Source: an uncultured Bacteroidales bacterium (GTDB lineage: Bacteria; Bacteroidota; Bacteroidia; Bacteroidales; Paludibacteraceae). From it: a stretch of DNA of 64,000 bases. Position numbers and translations under genes: made by a program. The stretch spans positions 48,990 through 112,989 of the forward strand of contig CAMIZG010000002.1 of assembly GCA_946403215.1 (NCBI GenBank). The letters run 5' to 3'. The notes under the pieces were generated by a model. That model had not been told where the DNA came from. It did not search any database and saw only the letters and a program-made list of their open reading frames with translations. Positions 60,148 through 64,000 of this stretch are shown in pieces (the stretch's first letter is position 1; the number at the start of each line of letters is the position of its first letter).

Positions 60148-62559
60148 ATGAAAAAACTCTTTACTCTTTTTGCTGCCGTTCTTTTCGCAGGCAGCATGTC
60201 AGCCGTCTATAACCTGACCAAGGTTACAGCGGTTGAAGATGGTGGATTGTATGTGTTCGAGCGCAACAGCCGTGTGCTTATTGGTACTTCAAGTAGTGAT
60301 AAACTACAATCTACTAGTGAGTATTCTACAGCAGGACTCTCCGGTACCGAACTCTATGTTTGGAGGCTTGATGCCATTGAAGGTGATGTGGAAAAAGGCT
60401 ATTGTATTACCAATATGGGTAGGTATAGTCAAGATCCCAACGGGCACATTCAACTAAGCAATGCATCAGGAGGTACAAAATTAACCCTTGCCAATGCAAG
60501 TGCATCTGCATGGGTATTTGAGTTCACCGATGGCATAGCTCTTATTTCCAACAAGGCAAATTCTAATCGTTTCATTGGTGAAACATCTGATGGCTCTGGT
60601 GAATACAAAGCTTATGCCACGCAGAATTTGGATGTAAACGGTCACGACTTCACGGTGTATAAGCTGGAGGAATCAAGCGATCCGTTTGTAAGCGTAAGTC
60701 CGGCAACCATTGACTTCGGTACAGTAAAGAAAGATGCTTCTGTTGCTGCAAAAGAGGTAACCGTAAGCTTCGGTAACCTGACAGGTGCCGTTACGTTCTC
60801 CGGTCTGACAGCTCCGTTTGGTGCAGCAGGTACAATTGCTGCTTCGGGTGACAAGATTACTATCTCCGCTTCTACCGCTACGGCTGGTGAGTACAGCCAG
60901 ACGCTGACCGTTCAGTCGGCTGCTGACAGCAAGTCTGCTACCGTAACCGTAACGATGAAAGTTGTTGAAGGTGCTGACCCGAGTGCGGACTTTGAACTCT
61001 ATACCGATGCTATCGTTGAAGGCGACTACGTTATTTGCTCTGATAATAGTGCATTGAATACTACAGAGGCAAGCAACCGCTTGGGATCAACCGCAGTTAC
61101 TCCGGTAAATGATGTTATTTCCGGCCCTGACGCTGCTATCGTTTGGCATATTGCCAAGTCAGGTGACTATTGGACACTCTACAATGCTGATGCCAATAAA
61201 TATGCTGCTGCCAAAACAGCTAAGAACCAGGCTGCCATGCAGGAAAGCGGCACAGATGACAAGGCTTTGTGGACTGTTACTGTGAGCAACGGCAAGTTTG
61301 AATTCGAGAACAAATCACGTGCAGCAGGTACTGACCCCAATAACAAATGGCTGCGTTACAATAGCCAGGTTTCGGCTTTTGCTTGCTATGCTTCCGGTAC
61401 CGGAAAGGCGCTTACTCTCTATAAGAAAGCTTCGGGCGCTCCGGCATCGGTAGCCAAACCCGCTATCTCCGGCAGCGAGAACTTCCAGGATGAGACAACT
61501 GTTTCTATTACGTGTGCAACTGACGGTGCGGAGATCTTCTACACCCTCGACGGTTCAGAGCCTACCAAGGAGGCTACCAAGTTCGTTGATGCATTCAAAC
61601 TCACTGCATCCACTACCGTCAAGGCTATCGCTATCAAGGGCGAGGACAAGAGTGCTATTTCAACCAAGGAGTTCCATGCATTCAAGTCGCAATATACCTG
61701 CGCTGAAGCAGCTGAACTTGCCATGACTGTTTCCGGCAACAATATTCCTGTTGGCGAGGGTCTGGAGTTCATCATCGAAGGTTATGTTACCGAAATAACG
61801 TATGCATACGGAGGCAGTAACATGAGCTTCTGGATGGCTGACGAAGCCGATGGCGATAACACATTGCAGGCCTACAAGGTTGAACCTGAATCCGCTGAGG
61901 CTGTGCCTGAGGTAGGTGACAAGGTTAAGGTTACCGGCAAGCTGACCAAGTTCAACAGCAACCCGCAGGTTGCCGCCGGCGGCAAGTGCGTCATCCTTGA
62001 GAAAGGCGGAGGCGGTGGTGGCGAAGAAAGCCAGTATGAGGATGACGAGAATGCTGACTTCAATATTGCATTCGCTTCCTATACTGTTGATGACCAGTCT
62101 CTGGCTGAAGACGGTGATGTATATGTAGAGGCTCAGGATGCAAACAACAACTACATTGTTCTGGATATAATGGTTCCCGAGGACGCTGATGGCTTGGTAG
62201 CCGGAACGTATCCTGTTGACGCTACGGAGACTTATCCTGCCCAGACGGTTGTTGCCGGTATCTACGATGAAGGTGTTTATCCTTCCTTTGCTGCGGTTTT
62301 GGCAAGCGACGGTGAGAATCTCGAGAAAGTTTGGTACATCGTTTCCGGTACAGTAGTTATTGACGCTGACCTGAATATCACGGTTACAGCCAAGAACTCG
62401 CTCGGCAAGGATGTGAAGGCTACACTCGCAGGTCCGAAGGGTACAGGCGTTGAGAAGAACAATGTTGCTGCCAAGGCTGTCAAGACCATTGAGAATGGCA
62501 TGATTGTGATTGAACTTGACGGGGTGCGTCACAACATTATCGGACAGGTTATCCGCTAA
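60148..62559 (+). CDS. Large secreted modular protein: Ig-like, chitobiase-C-terminal-like and OB-fold-like domains, C-terminal tag
   Basis: Signal MKKLFTLFAAVLFAGSMSA; VSVSPATIDFGTVKKDASVAAKEVTVSF; EIFYTLDGSEPTKEATKF; VGDKVKVTGKLTKFNSNPQVAAGG; ends KTIENGMIVIELDGVRHNIIGQVIR. Confidence 0.82.
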   Translation: MKKLFTLFAAVLFAGSMSAVYNLTKVTAVEDGGLYVFERNSRVLIGTSSSDKLQSTSEYSTAGLSGTELYVWRLDAIEGDVEKGYCITNMGRYSQDPNGHIQLSNASGGTKLTLANASASAWVFEFTDGIALISNKANSNRFIGETSDGSGEYKAYATQNLDVNGHDFTVYKLEESSDPFVSVSPATIDFGTVKKDASVAAKEVTVSFGNLTGAVTFSGLTAPFGAAGTIAASGDKITISASTATAGEYSQTLTVQSAADSKSATVTVTMKVVEGADPSADFELYTDAIVEGDYVICSDNSALNTTEASNRLGSTAVTPVNDVISGPDAAIVWHIAKSGDYWTLYNADANKYAAAKTAKNQAAMQESGTDDKALWTVTVSNGKFEFENKSRAAGTDPNNKWLRYNSQVSAFACYASGTGKALTLYKKASGAPASVAKPAISGSENFQDETTVSITCATDGAEIFYTLDGSEPTKEATKFVDAFKLTASTTVKAIAIKGEDKSAISTKEFHAFKSQYTCAEAAELAMTVSGNNIPVGEGLEFIIEGYVTEITYAYGGSNMSFWMADEADGDNTLQAYKVEPESAEAVPEVGDKVKVTGKLTKFNSNPQVAAGGKCVILEKGGGGGGEESQYEDDENADFNIAFASYTVDDQSLAEDGDVYVEAQDANNNYIVLDIMVPEDADGLVAGTYPVDATETYPAQTVVAGIYDEGVYPSFAAVLASDGENLEKVWYIVSGTVVIDADLNITVTAKNSLGKDVKATLAGPKGTGVEKNNVAAKAVKTIENGMIVIELDGVRHNIIGQVIR

Positions 62560-62576
62560 CCTAATGACTGAATTAT

Positions 62577-62604
62577 GGGAAATAGGGCTTGTGCCCTGTT
62601 TCCC
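62577..62604 (+). terminator. Strong hairpin after the 60148-62559 gene (no clear U-tract)
   Basis: GGGAAATAGGGC ttgt GCCCTGTTTCCC. Confidence 0.55.
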
Positions 62605-62652
62605 GTATGCAAAAGAATAAACAAACAAAAGTATAACCCAATTTATTAATTT

Positions 62653-62735
62653 ATGAAGGTTCGAGCAAGTCAAGCATAAGCTTGCTTATACAACTTGACG
62701 AAGCCGAAACTCCAAAATTTAAATTTATTTAAATT
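62653..62735 (+). repeat. 83-nt conserved leader copy 1 (mini-ORF MKVRASQA* plus hairpin)
   Basis: atgaaggttcgagcaagtcaagcataagcttgcttatacaacttgacgaagccgaaactccaaaattt...; ~74/83 identical to copy 2. Confidence 0.85.
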
Positions 62736-63332
62736 ATGAAAAAGATTTTTTCTCTTTTCGCTGCCGTGCTGTTTGCTGGTAGCATGATGGCAACTGTAGT
62801 AACTCTTGATCCTGCGCAGCATGATCCTATTGAGCCGGTTTCCTCCAATCAAGGTGCTGACATTGACATCACGATGGAAGGCATTCAGATCGTGTACAAT
62901 GGTTCGTTGAATGCTGCAAACGAGAGCAATCCTGCCGATTTCCGCGTATTTGGCGCTAAGACATTGACGCTTACGGCTGAAAGCGATATCTCCAAGGTTG
63001 TTATTGCGGGCAAGGCAAACAAAGCAGGTTGGGCTCCTTCCGTATCAGCCGGTGAGATCACTGTCGGTGCCAGCTATGATGCTGTTACAACCAAGAAGGA
63101 TCTGGAAGATCCCTTGTTCGTAGTTGAGAACATCAACGCCAAGAGCATTACTATCACTTGCAACAAGCAGCTTCGCGCTTATAAGATTCAAGTTACTCTG
63201 TCGGGTGACGCTCCGACAGCTGTTGACAATGCTACCGTAGGTGTTAAGGCACAGAAGGTGGTTCGTGACGGCCAGATCTACATCGTTAAGGACGGCGTTA
63301 TGTTCAACGCTAACGGTGCTGTGGTAAAGTAA
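62736..63332 (+). CDS. Small secreted protein with C-terminal tag
   Basis: Signal MKKIFSLFAAVLFAGSMMA; ends KVVRDGQIYIVKDGVMFNANGAVVK. Confidence 0.8.
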   Translation: MKKIFSLFAAVLFAGSMMATVVTLDPAQHDPIEPVSSNQGADIDITMEGIQIVYNGSLNAANESNPADFRVFGAKTLTLTAESDISKVVIAGKANKAGWAPSVSAGEITVGASYDAVTTKKDLEDPLFVVENINAKSITITCNKQLRAYKIQVTLSGDAPTAVDNATVGVKAQKVVRDGQIYIVKDGVMFNANGAVVK

Positions 63333-63388
63333 TATATATACCTTATTATATATACTAAAATTATTAATAAAAAAAACTCGTTTTAAAT

Positions 63389-63471
63389 ATGAAGGTTCGT
63401 GCCAGTCAAGCATAGGCTTGCTTATGCAACTTGACGAAGCCGAAGCTCCAAAATTAAAATTCGTTTAAATC
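63389..63471 (+). repeat. 83-nt conserved leader copy 2
   Basis: atgaaggttcgtgccagtcaagcataggcttgcttatgcaacttgacgaagccgaagctccaaaatta... Confidence 0.85.
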
Positions 63472-64000
63472 ATGAAGAAACTATTTTCAATTTTTGCTGC
63501 CGTGCTGTTTGCAGGCAGTATGATGGCTGGTTCGTACACCATTACATTTAAGGAGGGTTCTGGCTCAAGTGACAGTAGTACAAAAGTTAGCACGGTTGCT
63601 GATATTATCTCTGACGGTGCGTCTTATGTGTCTGCTGTTACTGCTGATAACGTGTACAATGCACGTTCGGGACGCGGTGTTAAGTTGGGAACCAGTTCAA
63701 AAACAGGCTCTCTGACATTGACACTTGCTGAAGCAGTGAAAGCTACTTCTCTCGTAGTCAACGTTCGTAAGTACAATGACTCGGAAAAGGCATTTACCAT
63801 TCAAGGTAAAGATTTTACGGCTGATGATGGCGATGATTTTACAGAGGCAACATACACCTATAATACTGCCACGGAAATCACTTCAATTGAGTTGGCTTCT
63901 CCTAAGCGCATTTATTTCACCACTCTTACCGTTAACTTCGAAGAAGAAGGCGGCGAAGAAGAGACCGGTTGCGCATGGGATGAGCTGGAGTGGCTCGGTG
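63472..64000 (+). CDS. Secreted protein, 3' truncated by window edge
   Basis: MKKLFSIFAAVLFAGSMMAGSYTITFKEGSGSSDSSTKVSTVADIIS...; open frame to the right edge, absent from the supplied ORF list. Confidence 0.82.
   Translation, partial: MKKLFSIFAAVLFAGSMMAGSYTITFKEGSGSSDSSTKVSTVADIISDGASYVSAVTADNVYNARSGRGVKLGTSSKTGSLTLTLAEAVKATSLVVNVRKYNDSEKAFTIQGKDFTADDGDDFTEATYTYNTATEITSIELASPKRIYFTTLTVNFEEEGGEEETGCAWDELEWLG

Follow-up and report, generated by a model that had tools for sequence, protein, structure and literature searches.

The locus and its two leaders

The window, i.e. the whole stretch of 64,000 nt that was analysed, comes from an uncultured Bacteroidales bacterium. It contains three adjacent genes for secreted proteins (60148-64000), which are alike in the DNA encoding their signal peptides and differ in their mature parts. 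Only the last two of these genes are preceded by the element described here. Its two copies lie where the initial annotation had placed them and are identical at 74 of 83 positions, and each ends on the base directly before the start codon of its gene (ATG at 62736 and 63472). The mini-ORF MKVRASQA* reported there is present in both copies, with its three internal differences all at third codon positions, as is the GTCAAG/CTTGAC stem with a CUUG loop. Three things had been overlooked: the sequence ATGAA is duplicated, a further hairpin (P4) separates the first one from the ATG, and the genome contains three more copies. P4 is kept in copy 1, whereas in copy 2 it is decaying and no longer folds well.

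Table 1 Features of the two leaders and their genes in the window
Feature	Position	Strand	Evidence
Element copy 1, old start codon included, rebuilt start excluded	62653..62735	+	Covariance model, 84.4 bits
Left repeat ATGAA, original start codon of the gene, read as mini-ORF start	62653..62657	+	Empty sites at ackA and serC
Helix P1, 5' arm (G.G or G.A mismatch, one bulge)	62657..62666	+	Fold analysis
Helices P2 and P3, CUUG loop, CAA bulge; mini-ORF stop TAA inside	62669..62699	+	Compensatory changes in most pairs
Helix P1, 3' arm	62703..62711	+	Fold analysis
Hairpin P4, composed of A and T only; its closing base directly precedes the ATG	62716..62735	+	Closing at or within the ATG in 109/113 family copies
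Right repeat ATGAA, where the downstream gene now starts (rebuilt start codon)	62736..62740	+	Repeat comparison
198-aa protein, signal peptide MKKIFSLFAAVLFAGSMMA	62736..63332	+	ORF
Element copy 2, P1-P3 intact, P4 partly decayed	63389..63471	+	Covariance model, 86.1 bits
Left repeat ATGAA of copy 2	63389..63393	+	Repeat comparison
Secreted-protein gene downstream of copy 2, running off the contig end	63472..64000	+	ORF

A genus-wide family

The similarity of copy 2 to copy 1 is far from chance (E = 1.8e-26 in a DNA search of their own genome). A plain DNA search retrieved 38 copies in 23 of 101 genomes, all belonging to one genus. With a covariance model made from 37 copies of the main subfamily, to which the window copies match with E ~1e-23, the element was detected in 123 of the 178 genomes of this genus (1-8 copies per genome), and in no other of the 205 genera sampled across the order. 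The model also raised the number of copies in the window's own genome from the two seen in the plain DNA search to five: the window pair and copies in the rplO (L15)/secY, infA/rpmJ and tuf/tRNA-Trp spacers. These counts come from copies that are not independent of one another and from genomes that are mostly incomplete, with gene starts assigned by simple scripts.

For the window copies, Rfam 15 contained nothing near the gathering threshold, permissive thresholds included, and for loci with tRNA-adjacent copies it returned only the tRNAs themselves. Phages and plasmids gave no match to the element, viral contigs gave no exact match to one restrictive pattern, and our literature searches found no element that rebuilds a start codon. 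The window leaders are members of a large, apparently undescribed family of small folded DNA or RNA inserts found in one genus.

Insertion at start codons

To describe the placement of the element, we studied 120 copies of the main subfamily. Essentially all of them adjoin start codons, before 35 groups of unrelated genes that include ackA, serC, serA, secY, rpmJ, rpmE and genes for secreted proteins, and the copies before genes run in the sense direction of the gene. According to the start calls of the script, the downstream gene begins with ATGAA in all but two of 119 cases. One of the exceptions starts with ATGAG; the other (L050) was assigned an upstream in-frame ATG, although the start of its signal peptide is ATGAA. 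Since the first five bases of the element (ATGAA) match the gene start, and from base 6 on the match is only at chance level, the element is framed by a 5-nt direct repeat. The left ATG is retained in 119 of the 120 copies.

Comparison with empty sites at ackA and serC gave an exact pattern, ...X|ATGAA versus ...X|ATGAA-[insert]-ATGAA. At ackA, the spacer ...AAATAACCTTATTAAATATAATACAC before ATGAA is common to the filled locus L211 and the empty locus L236, and ...CATTTAAGCATTTAGACATTT is common to filled L221, where the left ATG has mutated to ACG, and empty L230. At serC, the genes of filled L035 and empty L393 are ~4.5% apart, and both loci have the spacer ...GGAACCATAAATATTATACACTTAAATAAC before ATGAA. 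These exact empty sites show that the ATG of the mini-ORF is the old start codon of the gene in its native context, and that the insert brings a new ATGAA. Target sequence alone fails to explain the placement: of 28 intergenic or start ATGAA sites in the window, 18 are gene starts and 10 are intergenic non-starts, and no main-subfamily copy sits on any non-start site. From the target sequence one would expect many insertions at starts and some elsewhere; either selection or some additional preference is therefore at work.

The element has been gained and lost repeatedly. In single-gene trees, its distribution at ackA (16 filled and 65 empty loci) needs at least 10 changes, and that at serC (7 filled genomes) at least 7, five of them forced by well-supported branches. 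P4 remnants without the core are present at ackA in L217, L246 and L261. The serC element and its flank are identical or nearly so in three lineages (L047, L162 and L166) whose close relatives are empty; this indicates that whole loci have been transferred between species, which adds to the patchiness.

The window pair could also have arisen without any mobile element, through tandem duplication of a gene front (leader plus signal peptide) at this locus. The two copies are closer to each other (56 of 61 core positions) than to any other copy (54 at best), their signal-peptide DNA is also alike (46/57), and a comparable tandem pair exists in another genome (G165, locus L124). However, the upstream flanks are dissimilar (36 of 66 aligned positions), and such a duplication cannot account for the copies before ackA, serC, secY and rpmJ or for the empty sites. 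As a complete explanation we regard it as very improbable; this particular pair may well have originated in that way.

Fold and covariation

Read from 5' to 3', the element starts with ATGAA, followed by the P1-P2-P3 hairpin, in which P1 contains a mismatch, the internal loops are small and the end loop is of the CUYG type. Then come a CC(A) linker, P4 and the ATGAA of the gene. Covariation in the 62-nt hairpin is overwhelming and restricted to one strand. In the core hairpin, 98.6% of the cells are paired, and two-sided changes occur in 13 of 21 core pairs, compared with 3.7 in shuffled and at most 2 in slid versions. The number of cells with two-sided changes was 33 in the core set (4.7 in shuffles) and 210 in a larger, model-fitted set (43.6). 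G.U cells (98) far outnumber A.C cells (13), showing that the sense strand is the folded one. Compensatory changes in the stem, which the initial annotation had proposed to look for, are thus present in most pairs.

The sequence of P4 is nearly free to vary: there are some 85 different versions, almost all of them palindromic, and 109 of 113 copies have P4 closing at the ATG or within it. That pairing is held despite this variation could mean that P4 has a function in place. The linker after P1 varies with the target, being CCA for ATG, CCCGG for CGG and TGCGC for GCG.

These features would also fit a cis-regulatory RNA, a start-codon switch that answers a protein or a general signal and has spread between genes by recombination; in such a switch, the linker CCA/CCAU would have two alternative pairing partners, the old AUG and, when P4 is extended, the new one. 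The strand-specific fold with its strong covariation, the nearly invariable closing of P4 at the ATG, the sense orientation before genes, the left ATG kept in 119/120 copies and the change of the linker with the target (CCA/ATG, CCCGG/CGG, TGCGC/GCG) are all in line with this. Nevertheless, the downstream genes, tRNAs among them, have no common function, the element is missing from the same gene in most relatives, the in-gene copies are antisense to their gene, and P4 of window copy 2 now folds poorly. We therefore consider a purely regulatory origin improbable.

The mini-ORF is not a conserved leader peptide

The initial annotation had offered three readings of the leaders, the first being a translated leader peptide with an attenuator, in which ribosome movement over the MKVRAS mini-ORF would control hairpin formation. 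Indeed, the mini-ORF is open in almost all copies, most commonly as MKVRASRV* or MKVRANRV*. Its stop is at codon 9 in 95 of 119 copies, with MKV*, MKVRAS* or 25 and more codons elsewhere, and lies within nine codons in 107 of them. The other 12 mini-ORFs end at the new ATG or no more than 6 nt from it, or enter the gene in frame; ends near the new ATG are partly an automatic result of the ATGA overlap. However, both the stop position and the codons vary, changes of CGA to TGA truncate the mini-ORF, and covarying changes in P1 swap arginine for cysteine. Furthermore, P4 is A/T-rich and followed by the ATG, with no terminator U-tract, and the downstream genes have no function in common. The comparative sequence data thus contradict this reading, which appears largely refuted and is in our view hardly credible. 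Frame-disrupting changes in the mini-ORF, which had been named in advance as evidence against it, do occur, whereas the absence of stem covariation that had been named along with them was not found, the covariation being very strong.

The third-position differences do not provide a coding signal either: in the window pair, one affects a bulge, one an internal-loop base, and one turns an A-U pair into G-U. Overall, the hairpin part contains five differences: these three, one at the P1 mismatch, and one that gives copy 2 an additional C-G pair. As structure explains this pattern, no coding explanation is needed. Across copies, the entropies at the three codon positions of the mini-ORF are 0.30, 0.24 and 0.39, and the excess at the third is mainly due to the unpaired columns 12 and 15.

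The second reading, capture of the 5' end of rpmJ (ribosomal protein L36, MKVRAS...) as the origin of the element, was suggested by the identity of the first six residues, and copies do lie before rpmJ in three genomes (L051, L096, L157). Yet the element copies at rpmJ read MKA or MKVC, the serine codons in the window's own genome differ (TCT versus AGT), and subfamilies with the same fold (ATGAAGTCTTGTGC, NTGAAGTCTTGTGC) have no MKVRAS reading at all; the MKVRAS letters belong to the covarying stem. This origin can be set aside with near certainty. The third reading, a mobile 5' cassette, is borne out by the exact empty sites, the 5-nt direct repeat, the unrelated downstream genes and the repeated gain and loss.

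A probable small mobile element that rebuilds the start codon

Taken together, the family, the single-strand fold, the direct repeat, the exact empty sites, the repeated gain and loss and the unrelated targets make it likely (roughly 80%) that each leader is a copy of a small (~78-85 nt), non-autonomous mobile element, one that is active as a folded single strand and inserts 3' of GAA. The element would insert directly behind GAA, in the main subfamily behind ATGAA at start codons. The native ATGAA would stay on the left and the element's own ATGAA would form its right end, behind the hairpin, leaving both the start codon and the reading frame of the gene undamaged. Movement may proceed by a strand-specific single-strand DNA (or RNA) route, with the mobilising enzyme probably encoded elsewhere. 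Initiation at the old ATG may persist, with ribosomes stopping or coupling ahead of the new one; the closing of P4 at the ATG and the retained left ATG leave room for a role in translation.

Several observations count against a mobile element: no autonomous version or circular intermediate was seen, the non-start ATGAA sites are unoccupied, the P4 pairing is kept, and serC alleles have been transferred. In addition, the search for a mobilising enzyme turned up none. The window's own genome lacks Y1 transposases (PF01797); they occur in 69 of the 178 genomes of the genus with no enrichment in those bearing the element (51/123 with and 18/55 without it). None of 30 Y1_Tnp loci contained an element match, and no Y1 gene lay beside a copy.

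The loci L289, L296, L303 and L305 encode RAYT-like Y1 proteins of ~320-390 aa with a C-terminal extension, ISxGEKxIxxALRE...LIILLxxGFP. By eye this extension resembles a Rossmann-type nucleotide-binding fold; in the one protein tested, Pfam recognised only Y1_Tnp.

A more specific version of the mobile element is possible, although we consider it rather unlikely: three linker bases complementary to the landing site (CCA/ATG, CCG/CGG, CGC/GCG) would direct the element to start codons or tRNA 5' ends and the right end would rebuild the site, after which the linker would serve as a portable start-codon switch. This version covers the pairing of the same linker with the old or the new AUG once the element is in place.

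Other subfamilies and landing sites

Rarer subfamilies adjoin the 5' ends of tRNA-Trp and tRNA-Gly or sit in frame inside genes. At tRNA-Trp, the tRNA begins with ACGGAAG and the element with ACGGAA (ACGGA in some lineages); at tRNA-Gly, both begin with GCGGAA. A hypervariable hairpin precedes tRNA-Trp even where the element is absent, so P4 may be host sequence there. In the tuf/tRNA-Trp spacers L184-L210, a terminator-like hairpin stands directly before tRNA-Trp; it is hypervariable between species and usually still a hairpin. Some other species of the genus have a structured insert of another kind (CCTCnACCAAATCAACGAGC ... GCTCGTTGATTTGAGAGGAGG ... CCGACGA) exactly at the 5' end of tRNA-Trp (L181, L183, L187, L188, L199, L201, L203, L207); it was not found in Rfam and is absent from the window's genome. 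Between tuf and tRNA-Trp in genome G144 (L095), two consecutive copies of the element are separated by part of the other insert family, so that a single tRNA shows nested or repeated insertion.

More distant relatives lie antisense inside two genes (L317, L327), adding 27 codons with the frames open. In genome G140, comparison of a methylmalonyl-CoA mutase (MCM) pseudogene with its intact parent placed the insertion after GAA, with GTTGAA as the end of the element. Most in-gene copies have this right end whatever their left flank, which suggests that the right repeat may be carried by the element and not be a duplication. The PPDK and MCM fragments of G140 (L318, L329) contain several short palindromic inserts, and a second palindromic family (GGGGTCCCCAAAGAGCTTCGCTCGCATGGGGTG) adds codons in frame there. 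Stop-bearing inserts in these fragments had suggested removal at the RNA level; for MCM this was rejected, since the interrupted MCM is a pseudogene and an intact gene is located at a distance of ~11 kb.

Discussion

As a rule, a start codon is either spared by mobile elements or destroyed by them. In the present family, an entire subfamily would occupy start codons harmlessly by carrying its own ATGAA, with related subfamilies doing the equivalent at tRNA 5' ends and within reading frames. If confirmed, the family offers a natural series of exact before/after pairs in which the effect of an 80-nt structure and a displaced start codon on translation could be followed in Bacteroidales. The family also calls for caution: a short upstream ORF that is conserved, or a leader that covaries, can mark a mobile element and not a regulator. 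The enzyme, once found, would allow testing whether base pairing selects the site.

Among known systems, REPs flank a RAYT gene and bear a GTAG/CGTC-type tag. They share with the element the small single-strand hairpins dispersed in the genome, and RAYT-like Y1 proteins exist in the genus. The element, however, has only 1-8 copies per genome, shows no GTAG or CGTC tag in the alignment, and sits on start codons instead of extragenic space and not beside RAYT-like genes. MITEs of DDE transposons are likewise small and non-autonomous, with a short flanking direct repeat. The 5-nt ATGAA repeat could be a target-site duplication, but its right copy may be element-borne. Unlike MITEs, the element has no terminal inverted repeats (its ends are GGTTCG... 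and ...ATGAA, and P4 is variable), and its orientation and position are fixed relative to start codons.

The IS200/IS605 family, including PATE-like elements, resembles our element in the position 3' of a short fixed sequence that is retained on the left (ATGAA, or GAA in the in-gene subfamily), in strand-specific subterminal hairpins, and in bases complementary to the target. In IS608, the target stays in the left flank and guide bases pair with it (PMC5934647). There, the guide is 5' of each hairpin, whereas in our element the complementary linker is 3' of P1, the hairpin starts at the flank, and the left flank and the right end are both ATGAA. The likeness is functional only, given that the complementary bases lie on the side of the hairpin opposite to that in IS608 and that the element has no associated Y1 (HUH) transposase.

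Rickettsia palindromic elements (RPEs) are short palindromic inserts in many unrelated genes, some of them in frame within ORFs that they leave unbroken (PMC10969869). Similarly, two copies of our element, both of a minor subfamily (L317, L327), add their codons in frame. RPEs are set apart by their length (~150, compared with ~80 for the element) and their different phylum. Furthermore, the main subfamily of the element lies on start codons in the sense direction and rebuilds the start, it shows a single-strand G.U asymmetry, and other subfamilies are found at the 5' ends of tRNAs.
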